Source: a virus
Reading direction: 5' to 3' (one strand)
Length of the DNA stretch: 64,000 nt
Virus record (IMG/VR): IMGVR_UViG_3300034684_000059
Coordinates: 1-64,000 of that record
A program made the position numbers and the translations under genes. Within the stretch, counting starts at the first letter, position 1. Every line of letters starts with the position of its first letter. Shown here one piece after another: positions 10,492-60,784 of the stretch. The notes under the pieces are model-generated. The model did no database searches, was not told where the DNA came from, and saw only the letters and a list, made by a program, of their open reading frames with translations.

Positions 10492-10505
10492 CCTGTACAC
10501 TTGAT

Positions 10506-10542
10506 GAGATAGCTCTCTCCATCTTCGGGAGAGAGCTATCTC
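10506..10542. terminator. Strong hairpin terminator
   Basis: A 15-bp near-perfect stem (GAGATAGCTCTCTCC) with a 6-base loop, followed by TTCTT, ends the abundant-protein gene. Confidence 0.8.
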
Positions 10543-10591
10543 TTCTTACGTCGAATACAAGTTCTATTATTTTTCAACTAAGGGTAGAGCA

Positions 10592-22355: not shown

Positions 22356-22393
22356 CATAGAGAGTTCTCCCTACTTTGGGAGAACTCTCTATG
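22356..22393. terminator. Strong hairpin terminator
   Basis: A 16-bp perfect stem (CATAGAGAGTTCTCCC) with a 6-base loop after the 21222 gene. Confidence 0.85.
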
Positions 22394-30882: not shown

Positions 30883-30931
30883 TTAAGTAGGTACGATAGA
30901 ATACTAGTTTATTTCTATCGTACCTACTTAA
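30883..30931. terminator. Long hairpin terminator
   Basis: A stem of about 19 bp (TTAAGTAGGTACGATAGAA and its complement) with a 10-base loop, starting within two bases of the helicase stop. Confidence 0.85.
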
Positions 30932-30957
30932 ATACAAATCAGAAAAGGACTTTCAAA

Positions 30958-31611
30958 ATGATACAACTTAAACAAACTGAACATTGGTCAAGACTTAATA
31001 TTTTTGTCAAGAATCAGGATGATACTTGGACAGAAGTTAAGAATATCCATATTAAGACAGAACAAGGATGGAAACCTGTATGGAAATACTCTTGGGAAGT
31101 TGGTACTTGGGGAGAATGTTCTGAAAAATGTGGTGGGGGAGAACAAGTTAGAGATGTAACTTGTCTTAGATCTGATGGTATATACAAATCAGATCGATTT
31201 TGTAGTGAGATAAGTAAACCAGCATCTGTTCAGGAGTGCAACACTGGACCCTGTGGGTCTTACGCTACAGTTACCAGACTTTTGCATTATGGTCAGTTTA
31301 ATGTGAATGGAAATTCCTTCGGTGTCAGCGTGGGTGGTACTTACCTGATAGAACCTACTCTTCCTGAAGGAGAAAATACCCTGATAGTCACCGCACAACG
31401 TCCGGGATTATCGTGGCACCAAGGTACGATTATAGACATTTTATTCTGCAAAGACACACCAGAAGCATTTCGTCCTATATCGGGATTTCCACCAAGTCAC
31501 AGTTCTATTCAATATCCTGTGGAGTGTCAGCAATACGGAATAACTAAAGGAACAAAAGTATTGACATATAACCGAGGAGTAGATTCCACCCGGATGGTAT
31601 TCAAATTCTAA
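30958..31611 (+). CDS. Tail-fibre-like protein with thrombospondin type 1 domain
   Basis: 217 residues. Residues 1-44 read like the N-terminal module of phage tail proteins (IFVKNQDDTWTEVKNIHIKT, then GWKPVW). Residues about 45-99 are a complete thrombospondin type 1 repeat: Trp at 46 and 51, six cysteines at C54, C58, C69, C82, C94 and C99, the CGGGEQVR motif and a CNTGPC end, exactly the pattern of animal TSP1/ADAMTS modules. The rest is beta-rich. TSP1 modules bind glycans and proteins outside cells, so a receptor-binding or virion-surface role is likely. Three disulfides would require export or assembly into the virion. It starts an operon with 31626 and 32163. Confidence 0.8.
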   Translation: MIQLKQTEHWSRLNIFVKNQDDTWTEVKNIHIKTEQGWKPVWKYSWEVGTWGECSEKCGGGEQVRDVTCLRSDGIYKSDRFCSEISKPASVQECNTGPCGSYATVTRLLHYGQFNVNGNSFGVSVGGTYLIEPTLPEGENTLIVTAQRPGLSWHQGTIIDILFCKDTPEAFRPISGFPPSHSSIQYPVECQQYGITKGTKVLTYNRGVDSTRMVFKF

Positions 31612-35399: not shown

Positions 35400-38030
35400 A
35401 TGTCTATTATTTTCCCTACTGTTGTACGTAAACGTGACAACCTTACATTTGCTTCTTATAACAAACTGAAGATCATTCATGCCGTAGAAAAAGCGTTTCG
35501 TTCATACAACGAAACGGTTTCAAACGAACAGTTGGAAGAAATTTATTCTGGTGTAGTGGATCATATCACTAAAAATCCCAACATGTTGTCTTATAGATTG
35601 GACACCGGAGAATACTACATAGATGTCGAAACCATCCAGAACTTTGTAGAAAAATCTCTCATGGAGAAAGGATGGTATTCAATAGCTAAGAATTATATCT
35701 TGTACAGGAATCAGCGTGCGACTGTACGTGCCTTAGATAGTGCAGCCATCTTGGACGAAATCGATGGATATATCGGAGGGCATGATCCGGACGAAAAAGA
35801 AAACTCCAATATCGATTTTTCTCTTCAAGGACTCAACAACAACATTGTAGCTAAAATCATGCGGCAGTATTGGCTGGAACGAGTGATGACTCCGGAAGCA
35901 AAACAGATGCACATAAATGGAGAAGTCCATTTCCACGACCTTAATTTGCTTTCTGTGTATTGTTGCGGTTGGGATATGCGTGCACTTATTCTGGAAGGAC
36001 TTGGTGGAGTCCCAGGAGCAGTATCGTCAAGACCTCCTAAAGAATTTGGAGTAGCTCTTGGACAGGTATGGAATTTTCTGTACACCGTCCAGGGAGAAGC
36101 TGCTGGAGCACAATCCTTAAGTCAATTTGATCTTTATCTTGCACCTTTCATTCGATACAATAACCTCACGTATCGTCAAGTTAAAAAGTCTCTTGTAAAA
36201 TTTGCACACAACATGAATACCAAAACAAGGGTAGGTTTCCAGACACCGTTCACCAACGTGTCCTTGTGTTTGACCGTACCCAAATCTATGGCTGACGATC
36301 ATGTCATCTATGGTGGTAAGTTCATGGAAGACAAATATGGGGATTTCCAAAAAGAGATGGATATCTTTAACCAAGCATTTTGCGAAGTCATGCTTGAAGG
36401 TGACGCCGATGGACGTCAATTCCATTTCCCCATTCCTACGTACAACATTACTAAAGACTTCGATTGGGATAATCCCAATTACACCAAGCTCTGGGAATTG
36501 TCTGGGAAATACGGTTCTCCGTACTTCACGAACTATATCAATTCTGAACTTGATCCTGACGACGTACGCTCCATGTGCCCTATGCGATACGATACAAAGA
36601 TCACAACGTACTATCGCGGACACAAATCAACGATGACTTTAGAAGATCTTTATCGGACATATTCTGGTAAATCCATAACCGATACTTCAGTAACTTATCT
36701 TGGTAAACACATACCGGTGAAACGTGTACTGAGAGAACCCACTGAAGAACTTATCCGTATAACGACAAAACGTCAGTCTGAAGGACACGTATTTGATAGA
36801 AGACACATGCAACCTATCACTAGGGAAAACAAACCTCTCACTGTACGAGCATGTGATATCCAGATTGGAGATCTTCTTCCGTACGAACAGAAAGGAAATA
36901 TCGATTGGATAGCTGTCACTGATATCTCTCGAGTAGATAAAACTATACGAGACTCTTACGTATATTGCATAGAAGTCGATAGTGAAGATCACCTGTTTGA
37001 ACTGACAGAAGGAGATCTTATCACGCACAATTGTAGATTGCGTCTTGATTTTACTGAACTTAAGAATCGTGGTGGTGGTCTCTTTGGAGCTAACTCCATG
37101 ACTGGATCTATAGGTGTAGCCACCCTTAACTTACCGGATGCAGCTATAGAAGCAAACGGTGATAAAGACAAACTCTTCGAGATCCTCACAAGACGTATGG
37201 ACATCGCTGCACAGTTCCTCGACGATAGAAGAACTTTCATAGAGAGCAGTATCGAAAAAGGACTGTATCCTTTTAGTCGAAGATGGTTGCAGGGCATCAA
37301 AGACAAAACAGCTAACGATCCGGACATAAAACGTCCTGGATATTACGCTGCGTATTTTAGCACTATAGGTATCATCGGTGGTCATGAAATGTGCCTTAAC
37401 TTCTTAGGTAAAGGCATAGAAACTGAAGAAGGTGCAAAGTTAGCTTTGGAAGTTCAGGAGTTCATCAAATCAAGATTAGATCATTATCGTGAGAAATATC
37501 ACACTCCCTTCAATCTGGAAGCAACTCCTGCAGAAGGTGTGTGCTATCGTCTTGCTAAATGTCTGAAGACTAAATTCCCTACTGCAAAAATGGTAGAAGA
37601 ATTACGAGAACACGATGAACCTTATCTTACTAACTCGACTGCACTTCCTGTAGGATTTACCAATGATCTGTATACAGCAATAACCCACCAATCTAAATTG
37701 CAGGTTATGTATACAGGAGGAACGGTATTTCACATTTTCCTTGGAGAAGCCATATCCAATCCTGAAGCTGTGAAAGAAGTGGTTAGGATGGTGTGTACCA
37801 CGACGCCTATTCCTTACATCACACTTTCTCCCGAATATTCTATCTGCAGAAGTCACGGATATCTTGCAGGGGAACAACCCGAATGTCCCACTTGTCACAG
37901 TGACACCGAGGTGTATGCACGAGTAGTAGGTTTCTACACTCCTATGAACCGGTGGAACAAAGGAAAGCGTACTGAAGGAACTCATCGTAAGAGTTTCGAC
38001 GGAATCGTCGATGTCCTTAAAATCGAATAA
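35400..38030 (+). CDS. nrdD: Anaerobic (class III) ribonucleotide reductase with an intein
   Basis: 876-residue precursor. An N-terminal ATP-cone (VVRKRDNLTFASYNKLKI) is followed by the class III core. Residues 393-544 are an intein, leaving a mature enzyme of 724 residues in which SM is joined to CRLRLD. The C-terminus has the glycyl-radical site RVVGFY (G844 of the precursor) followed by WNKGKR. A metal site just before it has C-x2-H and C-x2-C, where relatives usually have two C-x2-C pairs. The enzyme makes deoxynucleotides without oxygen, using a glycyl radical generated by NrdG (encoded at 49695). Mature NrdD relatives usually have MCCRL at the splice point; here splicing would leave a single Cys. 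The gene is its own unit, ending at 38048. Confidence 0.95.
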   Translation: MSIIFPTVVRKRDNLTFASYNKLKIIHAVEKAFRSYNETVSNEQLEEIYSGVVDHITKNPNMLSYRLDTGEYYIDVETIQNFVEKSLMEKGWYSIAKNYILYRNQRATVRALDSAAILDEIDGYIGGHDPDEKENSNIDFSLQGLNNNIVAKIMRQYWLERVMTPEAKQMHINGEVHFHDLNLLSVYCCGWDMRALILEGLGGVPGAVSSRPPKEFGVALGQVWNFLYTVQGEAAGAQSLSQFDLYLAPFIRYNNLTYRQVKKSLVKFAHNMNTKTRVGFQTPFTNVSLCLTVPKSMADDHVIYGGKFMEDKYGDFQKEMDIFNQAFCEVMLEGDADGRQFHFPIPTYNITKDFDWDNPNYTKLWELSGKYGSPYFTNYINSELDPDDVRSMCPMRYDTKITTYYRGHKSTMTLEDLYRTYSGKSITDTSVTYLGKHIPVKRVLREPTEELIRITTKRQSEGHVFDRRHMQPITRENKPLTVRACDIQIGDLLPYEQKGNIDWIAVTDISRVDKTIRDSYVYCIEVDSEDHLFELTEGDLITHNCRLRLDFTELKNRGGGLFGANSMTGSIGVATLNLPDAAIEANGDKDKLFEILTRRMDIAAQFLDDRRTFIESSIEKGLYPFSRRWLQGIKDKTANDPDIKRPGYYAAYFSTIGIIGGHEMCLNFLGKGIETEEGAKLALEVQEFIKSRLDHYREKYHTPFNLEATPAEGVCYRLAKCLKTKFPTAKMVEELREHDEPYLTNSTALPVGFTNDLYTAITHQSKLQVMYTGGTVFHIFLGEAISNPEAVKEVVRMVCTTTPIPYITLSPEYSICRSHGYLAGEQPECPTCHSDTEVYARVVGFYTPMNRWNKGKRTEGTHRKSFDGIVDVLKIE
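36576..37031 (+). other. Mini-intein within NrdD
   Basis: The 152-residue insertion starts at Cys393 (CPMRYDTKI, block A), and ends with VYCIEVDSEDHLFEL and LITHN followed by Cys545 (blocks F and G), so the splicing residues C1, penultimate His, terminal Asn and Cys+1 are all present. The extein sequence on both sides (RSM and CRLRLD) rejoins into the normal NrdD active-site region. At this length there is no room for a homing endonuclease. Block B is unusual: the RRH around position 467 lacks the usual T-x2-H. Confidence 0.88.
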
Positions 38031-42414: not shown

Positions 42415-43500
42415 TTATATATTATTGGTTTGGATGAGATGTATACTGCCGTTACCACCATTACCACCTGCGGCATTCGGAAGATACTTAGGGTCCACAT
42501 CAAGAGAATCTCCACCTATACCACCCTGTACCAGTATTTTTGCAGGAGTATTAATATCGCCCTTGTGGAATATATGGATCGCACCGCCACCAGAACCTCC
42601 GCCACCTGCATTGTGTCCGGCACCACCATGAGCGCCATTGGCAGTTATTTTTCCGTTAGGACCGAAAATTATATTACCGTGTACTACGATTATAAGTAGA
42701 CCCCCGGCACCACTATACCCGGTTTGTGCAGCATAATTGGAAGGAGCTAATCTATGTCCAATACCACCAGGATTACCGGCTCCTCCTCCAACTGCACGTC
42801 GTTTAGTGTTCACATCTGTCGTAGCACATCTACCATCTCCGCCAAGTCCACCATCTGGTTGACCGGATCCTGCGGCCACTGTACGACCAGACGCTGCTGC
42901 ACCTCCACCTCCAGCTCCGCCAGAGAACGACGTACCTGCAGACCCAGCACCACTTGTACTAGTTCCACTCATCTGCTGAGCACAACCGCCACTACCACCA
43001 CCACCACACGCGCCGTTTATACCTGAACCACCAGTATATCCAACCAAACCATATGCTGTATCACTTCCACTACCTATGCTTCTTTTAGAGGCACCAGCTC
43101 CTCCTGTCGGCTGTATTACTGCGAGTCCTAGTGCAGTGAAAATATCTTCCGAATTTATGAATACCCCACGACGTGGATCTATACCTACGAATTTACCCGG
43201 AGCATTGGCTCCTCGTGCAGTCATGGATAGTTCACCACGAACAATAAGATCTCCAAGGATACGAAGGTACATTCCTTTACATCTATTCGTTGGACGAACT
43301 ACATGTCCTTCGTTGATGGTGAAGTTGTTATACGTTCTAACTACAGGATCACCATCAACTTCACTGACGAACTCATCATGATCAGATAACCCTGTAGACA
43401 CAAAATCCTGCGCAGACGATATCGGAAAATAAAATGCTTGTTCTACCGGAAAATTATAATCTTTAGTAGTCTGAGCATTTATAGAATCGATCACTAACAT
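42415..43500 (-). CDS. Gly-rich tail-fibre adhesin (paralog of 54395)
   Basis: 361 residues. Residues about 35-100 form a conserved head shared almost word for word with the protein at 54395 (DHDEF-SEVDGDPVVRTYNN, then INEGH-VRPTNRCKG). The rest, from about 130, is dominated by Gly runs (GGAGGGG, GGGSGG) with beta strands such as GLLIIVVHGNIIFGP between them. Poly-Gly folds of this kind form the receptor-binding tips of some phage fibres (T4-like gp38 adhesins). I infer a host-recognition adhesin with a common mounting domain and variable tip. It is a lone minus-strand gene; ribosome binding site CTTAAGGAGAG. Confidence 0.85.
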   Translation of the reverse strand: MLVIDSINAQTTKDYNFPVEQAFYFPISSAQDFVSTGLSDHDEFVSEVDGDPVVRTYNNFTINEGHVVRPTNRCKGMYLRILGDLIVRGELSMTARGANAPGKFVGIDPRRGVFINSEDIFTALGLAVIQPTGGAGASKRSIGSGSDTAYGLVGYTGGSGINGACGGGGSGGCAQQMSGTSTSGAGSAGTSFSGGAGGGGAAASGRTVAAGSGQPDGGLGGDGRCATTDVNTKRRAVGGGAGNPGGIGHRLAPSNYAAQTGYSGAGGLLIIVVHGNIIFGPNGKITANGAHGGAGHNAGGGGSGGGAIHIFHKGDINTPAKILVQGGIGGDSLDVDPKYLPNAAGGNGGNGSIHLIQTNNI

Positions 43501-49694: not shown

Positions 49695-50426
49695 ATGTAC
49701 ATCGTACCTAATTTTATTACCTCTACTCTGGATTATCCTGGAGGACATCTTTCTACAACAGTATTCACTAAAGGATGTAATCTAAGGTGTGGGTATTGTC
49801 ACAATGCAGAACTGATCAACAAAAACCCAGAAGAGTGTTTATCTTCTGAAGAATTTATTGATCTGATCAAAGAAAGAAGATCATCTATCCCTCACATTAC
49901 TGTATCTGGTGGGGAACCCACTATACACGAAGATCTTCCTGAAGTTTTACGACAACTTAAAACACTGGGATTTAAAGTAAAACTTGATACCAATGGCTCA
50001 CATCCGGAAATGCTCAAACAGATCATTTCGGAAAACTTAGTTACATATGTAGCTATGGATCTAAAAACAAGTTTAGCAAAATACATCGGTATGGAGTTTG
50101 GATGGGAAGAAGATTCGTTTCCAGAAGATATTTTAACTGAATCTGCCAGAGCTCTTAGTCTGTCTGGAATTTCACACGAATATCGTACAACCTTCTTCGA
50201 AAACTATCTTGGATTAGCAGATATCAAAAATATCCAAAAGATACTTCTTCAAAATTATCCGTCCACACAGCACCCTGTTGTGAAATACTTTGTACAGTGG
50301 GGGTTGTGGCCTCATCAACGAAAGACTCCATCGAAGTATAAAGTTCGTCTGAGTAAAAGTTATCGGCCAGATATCGTTGAGTTATTTTCGTCTTGTAAGG
50401 ATGTCATCTCTCTGGATTTCCGATAG
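49695..50426 (+). CDS. nrdG: Anaerobic ribonucleotide reductase-activating protein (radical SAM)
   Basis: 243 residues, ATG behind ATAGGAGGTCAGT. The radical-SAM cluster site is C28-x3-C32-x2-C35 in TKGCNLRCGYCHNAE. SGGEPT near residue 75 is the SAM-binding GGE motif, and the N-terminus (IVPNFITSTLDYPGG) is typical of NrdG2-type activases. The enzyme uses an iron-sulfur cluster and S-adenosylmethionine to put the glycyl radical on NrdD (35400). The two genes are 12 kb apart, not in one operon as usual. Downstream comes the endolysin. Confidence 0.9.
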   Translation: MYIVPNFITSTLDYPGGHLSTTVFTKGCNLRCGYCHNAELINKNPEECLSSEEFIDLIKERRSSIPHITVSGGEPTIHEDLPEVLRQLKTLGFKVKLDTNGSHPEMLKQIISENLVTYVAMDLKTSLAKYIGMEFGWEEDSFPEDILTESARALSLSGISHEYRTTFFENYLGLADIKNIQKILLQNYPSTQHPVVKYFVQWGLWPHQRKTPSKYKVRLSKSYRPDIVELFSSCKDVISLDFR

Positions 50427-53462: not shown

Positions 53463-53465
53463 AAT

Positions 53466-53501
53466 ATAGATAAGTCTCTTCTTTGGAAGAGACTTATCTA
53501 T
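53466..53501. terminator. Hairpin terminator
   Basis: ATAGATAAGTCTCTTC, TTT loop, GGAAGAGACTTATCTAT: a 16-bp stem directly after the broken gene. Confidence 0.85.
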
Positions 53502-53580
53502 ACAGTTAGTATTCGATATATTTCATAGATGGGATAATTCGAAATATGATATGATTATATTTTCACATTTGGAGTAAGTC

Positions 53581-54321: not shown

Positions 54322-54394
54322 CGAAAACATTTGATGCGGGGTATCAACGAATTTAATCGTCCGCAGTTATCTTAACGTATATTTGGAGAAACGT

Positions 54395-55408
54395 ATGTTA
54401 GCAATAGATTTTCCTAATGCTGCTTCTACGATCAACGATAAGTACTATCGCGAGATTGTCTCTGAGGAACGATTTGAGTTTCCTTCTACAGCAGAAGATT
54501 TTATATCGACTGGAGTGGCTGATCATGATGAGTTCATCAGTGAAGTTGATGGTGATCCTGTAGTTAGAACATATAACAACTTCACCATCAACGAAGGACA
54601 TCTTGTTCGTCCTACGAATCGGTGTAAAGGACTGTATCTCAATATTCTTGGGGATGCACACATCCACGGAACACTGTCCATGACTGCAAGAGGAGCATTT
54701 GCTCCTGGTAAGTATGTCGGTATAGACTTGAAAAATAAAGTTATACATTACAATCACAGCGATACCTATCCGGAAGATGCGATGTTCGTCATGACGCCTA
54801 TAGGTGGTCCTCGACTGACAACGTATAATACTCGTGGATCTGACGGAGTGGGTAACTCGTGTGGAGGCGGTGGATGTGGTGCGGTAGAATACCACTACGG
54901 TGGTGTTGGAGGATATGGGGGGGAAGGTACTTCTTTTTCCGGTGGAGCTGGAGGAGGCGGGACTGCAAGAGGAACCGCAGGCTCTGGTGGTATAAATGCT
55001 GGTAGAGGAGGAAACGGATACGGATTCGTCGCTACTACCGGTGTATGGTTTTCTGCAGGCGGAGGAGCCGGTAACCCTGGAGGACCTGGCTCTTATGGTG
55101 GACATACAGGAGAATCTGGCGCAGGTGGTGTGATCATTGTGTTCGTTCATGGAGATCTCGTTATCCATCCTACAGGGAAGATAGTTTCTGCCGGATCTAA
55201 AGGTGGAGATGGGTATGACCCTGGTGGTGGATCTGGTGGTGGTGCCATCCATATATTCTACAAGGGGTTATTCGAAGGATCCGATAAGTTATTTGTTCCT
55301 GGAGGAGGTGGGGGACGTCCTATCCCTGCAGGAGGATATTCCGGAGCAATTGGTGCTCCCGGAGGTACCGGATCGATATCCCATCAACGTATACCTAGTA
55401 TATGGTAA
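54395..55408 (+). CDS. Gly-rich tail-fibre adhesin (paralog of 42415)
   Basis: 337 residues from ATG 54395 (MLAIDFPNAAS) with TTTGGAGAAACGT; a TTG at 54383 lies inside that site. The head shared with the 42415 protein spans about residues 35-100; the Gly-rich region from 150 on has repeated GGAGGGG and SGGGAIHIFYKG-type strands. The two tips differ strongly in length and loop sequence while the head is nearly identical, as expected for alternative host-recognition adhesins mounted on the same fibre. Confidence 0.85.
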   Translation: MLAIDFPNAASTINDKYYREIVSEERFEFPSTAEDFISTGVADHDEFISEVDGDPVVRTYNNFTINEGHLVRPTNRCKGLYLNILGDAHIHGTLSMTARGAFAPGKYVGIDLKNKVIHYNHSDTYPEDAMFVMTPIGGPRLTTYNTRGSDGVGNSCGGGGCGAVEYHYGGVGGYGGEGTSFSGGAGGGGTARGTAGSGGINAGRGGNGYGFVATTGVWFSAGGGAGNPGGPGSYGGHTGESGAGGVIIVFVHGDLVIHPTGKIVSAGSKGGDGYDPGGGSGGGAIHIFYKGLFEGSDKLFVPGGGGGRPIPAGGYSGAIGAPGGTGSISHQRIPSIW

Positions 55409-59385: not shown

Positions 59386-60729
59386 ATGTCTGAAGTACAA
59401 AATACTATCGTAGCTACAGATGACAATATCGTGTACATCGTTAGCTCCGAGATCAAACGGTTGGGAGACCGTGCTGATCTTAATCACATAGATGTCAGTA
59501 ACATTACTGACATGTCGTGTCTGTTTAATACGTCTTCATTCAATGGAGACATATCCAAGTGGAATGTATCAAACGTTAAGGATATGTCTTGGATGTTCTC
59601 AGAATCTGAGTTCAATGGAGACATATCTGACTGGAATGTATCTGGTGTAGTAAACATGCACGGCATGTTCTCACATTCTAAGTTCGATCAGGATATATCG
59701 AACTGGGATGTGTCTCATGTTGAAGATATGTCTTATATGTTCGATGAGTCTCAGTTCAATCAAGACATATCGTCTTGGGACGTATCGAACGTTACTGAGA
59801 TGAATAACATGTTCGAACGTTCTGTATTCAATGGGGATATCGCATCCTGGGATGTCAGTAACGTTAAGAACATGCGTACAATGTTCACATACTCACGATT
59901 CAACAGAGATATCTCCCGGTGGGATGTGAGTAATGTGGTATTCATGTCTTGGATGTTTGCATCTTCAGTATTCGACGGGGATATATCTGGATGGGATGTA
60001 TCCAACGTCAGAGATATGTCTCACATGTTCGAACGTTCTAAGTTCAATCGGGACATATCTAAATGGAATGTGTCTAACGTTAAATACATGCAACACATGT
60101 TCTCAGAATCAATATTCAACCAAGACATATCTTCTTGGAATATTGGTCGAGTAAAAGATATGTCTGGCATGTTCGAACGTTCGATATTCGATCAGGACAT
60201 ATCCCGATGGGATGTGTCGCACGTTACAAATATGTTTGGAATGTTCTCACACTCTAAGTTCAAAGGGGATCTATCCAAATGGGACGTAAGTGAAGTCGAG
60301 AACATGCGCTGCATGTTCTCAGAATCTGTGTTCAATAGAGACATATCCATGTGGGACGTATCGAACGTTAAAGATATGTTTGGTATGTTCACAAATTCGA
60401 TGTTCAACCAAGACATATCTGACTGGGATGTCTCTAATGTTAAAACAATGAAAGGGATGTTCTCAAAATCCAGGTTTGACCAAGACATATCGACATGGAA
60501 TGTGTCTCAGGTTACAGATATGTCTTGGATGTTCTATAGATCCGTGTTCAACCAGGACATAGCTTTGTGGGACGTGTCTAACGTAACTGGCATGGAATAT
60601 ATGTTCTACCGTGCTAAGTTCAATCAAGACATATCCCGATGGGATGTGTCCGATACGACTGACGTATCCGGCATGTTTGAAGGATCTCCTTTAGAACAAC
60701 ATCCTCCGATGTGGAACAAACAAAAATAG
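59386..60729 (+). CDS. BspA/DUF285-type leucine-rich-like repeat protein
   Basis: 447 residues. Residues 52-435 are sixteen repeats of exactly 24 residues with consensus FNxDISxWDVSNVxxMxxMFxxSx, preceded by a half unit (HIDVSNITDMSCLF) and followed by a 12-residue tail. This is the DUF285/BspA-like (PARCEL) repeat seen in Mycoplasma and gut-bacterial surface proteins, which forms an extended solenoid for protein binding. There is no signal peptide or anchor, so the product stays in the cytoplasm or binds a virion. A TATATTAC promoter makes it an early-type gene, which argues for an intracellular partner rather than a fibre. Confidence 0.9.
   Translation: MSEVQNTIVATDDNIVYIVSSEIKRLGDRADLNHIDVSNITDMSCLFNTSSFNGDISKWNVSNVKDMSWMFSESEFNGDISDWNVSGVVNMHGMFSHSKFDQDISNWDVSHVEDMSYMFDESQFNQDISSWDVSNVTEMNNMFERSVFNGDIASWDVSNVKNMRTMFTYSRFNRDISRWDVSNVVFMSWMFASSVFDGDISGWDVSNVRDMSHMFERSKFNRDISKWNVSNVKYMQHMFSESIFNQDISSWNIGRVKDMSGMFERSIFDQDISRWDVSHVTNMFGMFSHSKFKGDLSKWDVSEVENMRCMFSESVFNRDISMWDVSNVKDMFGMFTNSMFNQDISDWDVSNVKTMKGMFSKSRFDQDISTWNVSQVTDMSWMFYRSVFNQDIALWDVSNVTGMEYMFYRAKFNQDISRWDVSDTTDVSGMFEGSPLEQHPPMWNKQK
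59539..60690 (+). repeat. Sixteen tandem 72-bp units encoding the DUF285 repeats
   Basis: The array is exactly 16 x 72 bp with no insertion or gap. Positions such as GACATATC(C/T), TGGGATGTGTC and ATGTTC recur in nearly every unit, while flanking codons vary. Confidence 0.85.
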
Positions 60730-60747: not shown

Positions 60748-60784
60748 TAAGAGAGTTCCTCCTTGACCGGGAGGAACTCTCTTA
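60748..60784. terminator. Hairpin terminator
   Basis: TAAGAGAGTTCCTCC, 7-base loop, GGAGGAACTCTCTTA, a 15-bp stem after the repeat protein. Confidence 0.85.

Follow-up and report, generated by a model that had tools for sequence, protein, structure and literature searches.

A thrombospondin type 1 domain in a putative tail adhesin of a distant phiKZ-like phage

Thrombospondin type 1 repeats (TSP1) are regarded as a hallmark of adhesion proteins in animals and apicomplexans. A gene encoding such a repeat in a phage raises the question of what the domain does there and which part of the protein, if any, makes contact with a host. The window analysed here, a stretch of 64,000 nucleotides, is part of an 87,468-base IMG/VR record (IMGVR_UViG_3300034684_000059) and contains one such gene, whose product is designated P0001; a second copy lies in the same record.

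30958..31611, plus strand: whole gene of the 217-residue TSP1 protein P0001 (open reading frame and translation, ATG start)
30958..31089, plus strand: residues 1–44, VK/W repeat module, proposed virion or fibre attachment part (hhalign to the N-termini of Moabite gp269 and SURPRISE13_087)
31090..31254, plus strand: residues 45–99, TSP1 domain, ADAMTS subtype, Cys 54/58/69/82/94/99 (PF19030, predicted structure, Foldseek against the PDB)
31255..31608, plus strand: residues 100–217, unique C-terminal region, proposed receptor-binding part (entirely unlike the paralogue)
30883..30931, no strand assigned: perfect inverted repeat of 19 bp in the gap that separates the P0001 gene from the helicase gene upstream (RNA fold −28 kcal/mol, z −8)
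G000:C1:77862-78575, minus strand: TSP1 gene copy 2, same record, outside the window

An AAGGA ribosome-binding-like site stands at 30944–30948, nine bases 5′ of the ATG. The inverted repeat, whose sequence is unique within the window, is probably a terminator of the upstream transcription unit or a 5′ leader hairpin. Intergenic hairpins of 14–19 bp, perfect or near-perfect, are numerous in the window (for example, 30883-30931, 10503-10545, 22356-22393, 53465-53502, and 60748-60784), and several have a similar GAGAGTTC-type stem; they are probably terminators of the phage, and an Rfam scan of the window returned no match.

The TSP1 domain and its genomic setting

The sequence-only reading had taken residues 45–99 (SWEVGTWGECSEKCGGG...CNTGPC) for a complete TSP1 module, and profile searches bear this out: the Pfam family PF19030 (TSP1_ADAMTS) aligns with residues 46–99 over its full length (profile positions 1–55 of 55) at 53.9 bits (E = 2.2e-14; cut-off 23.8 bits), with six cysteines in register and the CNTGPC end in place. 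Two further cysteines of the eight in P0001, Cys 164 and Cys 190, both lie in the C-terminal part. PF00090, the profile by which it had been proposed to check the module, scores 18.3 bits (E = 0.0027), under its cut-off of 21.6 bits; taken literally that check fails, yet the domain is real by PF19030, and a PF00090 score below cut-off beside a PF19030 score well above it places the P0001 domain in the ADAMTS subtype. In the paralogue, PF00090 reaches 24.2 bits and is above the cut-off. A PF19030 scan of the whole record gave E = 3.1e-16 at P0001 and 8.0e-18 at copy 2 (G000:C1:78279-78440, minus strand), and the same search was silent in 14 control genomes. The six cysteines are invariant across a seven-sequence phage alignment, and disulfide bonding in P0001 is implied only by the six aligned cysteines; by analogy with known TSRs, the predicted linkage would be 54–94, 58–99, and 69–82.

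An AlphaFold2 model of residues 1–100, computed with seven phage sequences as input, has a mean pLDDT of 84.8, rising to block values of 89–96 over residues 41–100, and the predicted fold is a three-stranded TSR. The first 31 Foldseek matches in the PDB are all TSP1 repeats, so the structural check proposed for the module came out in its favour; the best of them, 8oxr (TSP7A), superimposes with an rmsd of 2.5 Å over 60 columns at 35% identity, and the neighbours include TSP7A, Semaphorin-5A, BAI1, complement C5b9, properdin, thrombospondin-1, ADAMTS13, UNC5, and Plasmodium TRAP. The Foldseek E-values, at best 1.3e-3, are modest owing to the small size of the domain. In a sequence search, a profile built from the phage proteins matches TSP7A at 1.2e-10.

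The genes around P0001 encode split RNA polymerase subunits together with baseplate and virion proteins. The split multisubunit RNA polymerase genes are related to those of phiKZ (phrog_3295, 3015, 2987, and 2986), and the non-virion RNA polymerase (nvRNAP) beta subunit shares 27% identity with its counterparts in phiKZ and Aeromonas phage pAEv1810; on these sequence grounds the source is assigned as a distant phiKZ-like phage. A contig of 199,880 bases from IMG sample 3300034683 (G002) has 46% identity to the record in nvRNAP beta and also encodes a TSP1 protein. The P0001 gene itself has a helicase gene upstream and a phrog_289 gene on its other side, close to the non-virion RNA polymerase genes, and copy 2 adjoins genes without assignment.

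An animal-like domain on a metagenomic contig might be a chance or convergent cysteine-, glycine-, and tryptophan-rich sequence, or come from a eukaryotic contaminant or chimeric contig. The probability of this is negligible: the strength of the full-profile PF19030 match, the embedding of the gene in a phiKZ-like genome, the second copy in the record and its near-identical counterpart in another contig (1 nt in 714), and diverged copies on independent contigs from other phages together rule it out.

Several other open reading frames of the window deserve mention. An anaerobic-type ribonucleotide reductase-like frame with an apparent in-frame intein-like insert, as judged by eye (35400-38030, plus strand), and a radical-SAM activase-like frame (49695-50426) hint at an anaerobic host. 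The frames at 42415-43500 (minus strand) and 54383-55408 (plus strand) have similar N-termini and glycine-rich GGxGS-type ends and look like a second paralogous pair, tail- or adhesin-like, with no Pfam match to either. The frame at 59386-60726 (plus strand) is matched by phrog_3649 in seven stretches (E = 5e-98) and by other families of unknown function, a pattern that marks its product as a repetitive protein.

A constant half and a variable half

Copy 2 has residues 5–99 in common with P0001 and diverges completely thereafter. Over the DNA tract that they have in common (255 nt) the copies are 91% identical, and comparison of the flanks and the 3′ (C-terminal) halves of the two copies at the DNA level gave no match. 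Within the tract, codons 5–55 differ by one base change, and the remaining changes are clustered at codons 56–68 and past codon 84 (permutation p = 0.002 for the longest clean run); the mosaic fits recombination or gene conversion between the copies and not steady drift. A 237-residue copy on contig G001 is one base apart from copy 2 in 714, and hence that contig belongs to the same or a sister phage and lends no independent support. A diversity-generating retroelement was considered as the source of the C-terminal difference and rejected: searches of four phage records, themselves fragments, found no reverse transcriptase, and the changes are not confined to A.

The C-terminal 118 residues of P0001 gave no usable model (pLDDT 25–38). 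Pfam returned nothing above its curated cut-offs for this region, the Glucodextran_B match (E = 0.028) being below its own; no convincing homologue of this half was found in the loci of relatives; and P0001 as a whole has no PHROG match. The C-terminus is not glycine-rich.

The division into halves bears on where a ligand would be bound. It had been suggested from the sequence that the TSP1 domain binds surface glycans or host mucus, in which case the C-terminal half would only modulate binding. Animal TSRs do bind sulfated glycans, and the structural neighbours include 8ckl, a structure of Semaphorin-5A TSR 3-4 together with sucrose octasulfate; most relatives have a mildly basic TSP1 (several at pI 8.3–8.7); and the differences inside the common tract fall in the TSP1 part, which makes functional tuning possible. 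The domain nevertheless lies in the half common to both copies, with the C-terminal half wholly different between them, and in P0001 it is acidic (net −3, pI 4.6) with few arginines and lysines, unlike heparin-binding TSRs. Binding of a heparin-like glycan is not favoured because of this acidity; the glycan and mucus proposal thus finds no specific support, and a binding role for TSP1 itself is unlikely.

Relatives and their fibre loci

Related phage proteins, which the sequence-only reading had suggested looking for, do exist: when 2.9 million viral contigs were scanned by pattern and by profile, 13 of them, the window's own record not counted, proved to encode TSP1 proteins, after pattern matches in chance frames (L007, L008, L014, and L019) had been left out and with L020 and L021 having no TSP1 frame. 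Among 50,697 phage records, tblastn with whole P0001, with the N-terminus plus TSP1 of L009, L018, and L027, and with three isolated TSP1 domains found no TSP1 match, though single-sequence tblastn may miss diverged copies; the N-terminal module of the TSP1 proteins was found in known phages of the same set. None of the papers searched names thrombospondin type 1 together with phage and tail fibre. The use of TSP1 in phages is real, rare, and apparently undescribed.

Two architectures can be distinguished. The first, a VK/W N-terminus followed by an ADAMTS-type TSP1 and a variable C-terminus as in P0001, recurs in other phages (G001-G006 and L030, the last a contig binned with a Bilophila genome). 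The second combines different N-termini, mostly MALQSSGQIKLSE...-like, with a PF00090-type TSP1, followed by Pfam Gly_rich_2 in both cases tested (L009 and L015). N-termini of the relatives match phrog_25859, phrog_36019, and phrog_21772; phrog_25859 aligns in part across the TSP1 of two relatives and may contain an unrecognised case of the domain. C-termini of the relatives split into several unrelated groups. Three different phages (L017, L030, and L075) have in common a small C-terminal domain ending in GY[LV]YT...CR[TE]P[VI], which, searched with the L075 version, had no match in cultured phages. In two others (L027:4291-5319 and L076:5998-7068) a glycine-rich C-terminus follows straight after TSP1, recalling gp38-type glycine-rich adhesins; the L076 frame changes character near its end, possibly through a frameshift.

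The match to animal modules that had been reported for P0001 holds for the profile, which is of the ADAMTS subtype, but not for the nearest sequences. Outside its own paralogue, the best matches to the P0001 TSP1 are from Bdellovibrionaceae (56%), Taylorbacteria (53%), and Magnetococcales (53%), then two phage domains, then Pacearchaeota (52%); the closest human domain of solved structure is 35% identical. A scan of genome contigs (L031-L048) found ADAMTS-type TSP1 in Patescibacteria, DPANN archaea, Bdellovibrionaceae, Myxococcota, and other prokaryotes, in tandem in some. Because the closest sequences found are bacterial and archaeal, animal ancestry is not needed for the phage domain, as judged by pairwise identities, 55 residues being too few for a tree without broad sampling.

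On five contigs the TSP1 gene lies directly in a tail-fibre cluster, giving six gene sets (L026, L027 twice, L030, L075, and L076), arranged as follows.

G002/L026: fibre (tail-fibre PHROGs), then a 320-residue protein (phrog_2618/1604), then the TSP1 protein
G004/L027: triplet of fibre, ~315-residue gene, and TSP1, twice in tandem, the first set with Collar and Phage_fiber_2
L030 and L076: fibre, then a ~315-residue gene, then TSP1
L075: fibre, then TSP1, then phrog_2618

The L026 fibre has an Mtd_N-like N-terminus (26.2 bits against a cut-off of 26.3), and the middle gene of the second L027 triplet has no PHROG match. A marine contig (L009) carries three TSP1 genes in a tail-fibre gene array, beside recombination genes that appear T4-like by eye. 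The N-termini of the TSP1 phage proteins align by hhalign with those of Serratia phage Moabite gp269 and Burkholderia phage SURPRISE13_087 (probability 98.5, 44 columns), in agreement with the earlier description of a tail-protein-like N-terminus ahead of the TSP1. Moabite gp269 comes right after gp271 (T2 gp12-like, according to the record note) and gp270 (a phiKZ131-like virion protein, according to the record note), the latter annotated by similarity to phiKZ131, detected in virions by mass spectrometry per the record. In Stenotrophomonas phage DLP_6, matched by the other N-terminus type, the module lies two genes past the tail fibre. Across no fewer than three mutually unrelated types of phage, the N-terminal module and its relatives point to tail-fibre loci.

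Because of the relatives' fibre clusters, the L009 array, and the positions in Moabite and DLP_6, P0001 is probably a small structural adhesin on the phage tail, at or near the fibre. The extracellular adhesion-type role first proposed for it therefore stands as the best reading, drawn from the loci of relatives. Residues 1–44 would dock the protein onto the virion fibre or tail; the TSP1 would serve as a rigid, disulfide-stapled stalk or presentation module; and residues 100–217 would be the exchangeable part that contacts the receptor. As its two copies agree in the constant half and differ in the C-terminal half, the phage would have two adhesins, the constant half being long and similar enough for recombination. 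Several observations count against a tail adhesin: neither copy of the record is within a fibre cluster; the ~315-residue partner gene and a phiKZ131-like protein were sought in the recovered part of the record, a fragment, and not found; P0001 has no PHROG assignment; and TSP1 needs oxidation, virions being assembled in the reducing cytoplasm.

The placement of the gene among RNA polymerase and helicase genes, and the many prokaryotic TSP1 proteins that are chromosomal and non-phage, would also suit a non-virion protein, released at lysis or displayed on the infected cell surface (for instance, in superinfection exclusion or in contact with other microbes or an animal host). No secretion signal is apparent by eye at the N-terminus, however, and the N-terminal module and its relatives point to tail-fibre loci; such a role is quite improbable. 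More broadly, it is quite possible that TSP1-bearing tail adhesins form a hitherto undescribed class of phage receptor-binding protein, with a constant VK/W and TSP1 cassette and swappable C-terminal heads; the class would be spread across unrelated phage lineages, with exchange through homologous recombination within the constant DNA.

Comparison with known systems

Genes with TSP1 occur in three or more unrelated types of phage, and the domain has closer relatives in bacteria and archaea than in animals. Should it be present on virions, it would give phage adhesins a further building block, a disulfide-stapled stalk; it would help to recognise receptor-binding genes of uncultivated phiKZ-like phages, in which such genes are hard to find; and it would raise the question of how it can fold when the virion is assembled in a reducing cytoplasm.

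P0001 resembles other ADAMTS-subtype repeats (PF19030; relatives PF00090 and PF19028) in its full-length profile match, six cysteines in register, W-x4-W and CSxxCGGG motifs, and predicted TSR fold; it differs in the phage-type N-terminus ahead of the domain and in its prokaryotic closest sequences, and the secretory glycosylation pathway is not expected for it. Another viral TSP1, found by Foldseek, is G9E6E6 of Micromonas pusilla virus SP1 (annotated as Spondin-like TSP1); this virus, however, has a eukaryotic host, and the domain is of the spondin-like subtype. Moabite gp269 and SURPRISE13_087 have in common with P0001 the homologous 44-residue N-terminal module, and in Moabite, itself phiKZ-like, the gene for gp269 comes immediately after two genes for virion structural proteins; both proteins lack TSP1, and their C-termini are unrelated to that of P0001.

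Jumbo phage tails carry animal-like adhesion domains such as discoidin, Laminin G3, SPRY, and C1q, and in the survey of 224 such phages that describes them, the only mention of thrombospondin is in the title of a reference (PMC7824862). The likeness lies in a metazoan-type extracellular module on the attachment apparatus of a large phage, to which the TSP1 of P0001 would be an addition. The fibre-tip adhesin gp38 of the T2 type (phages S16 and PP01) is attached to gp37 by its N-terminus and uses hypervariable loops to bind the receptor (PMC12892980). Like gp38, P0001 is small and is proposed here to combine a conserved N-terminus for attachment with a variable part for receptor binding, and the relatives of P0001 are encoded next to the fibre; P0001 differs in having TSP1 in place of the glycine-rich PGII domain (glycine-rich C-termini do occur in L009, L010, L027, and L076) and in not being directly downstream of a fibre gene, the upstream gene encoding a helicase. 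P0001 is not a member of the gp38 family; by analogy, it perhaps works like gp38.
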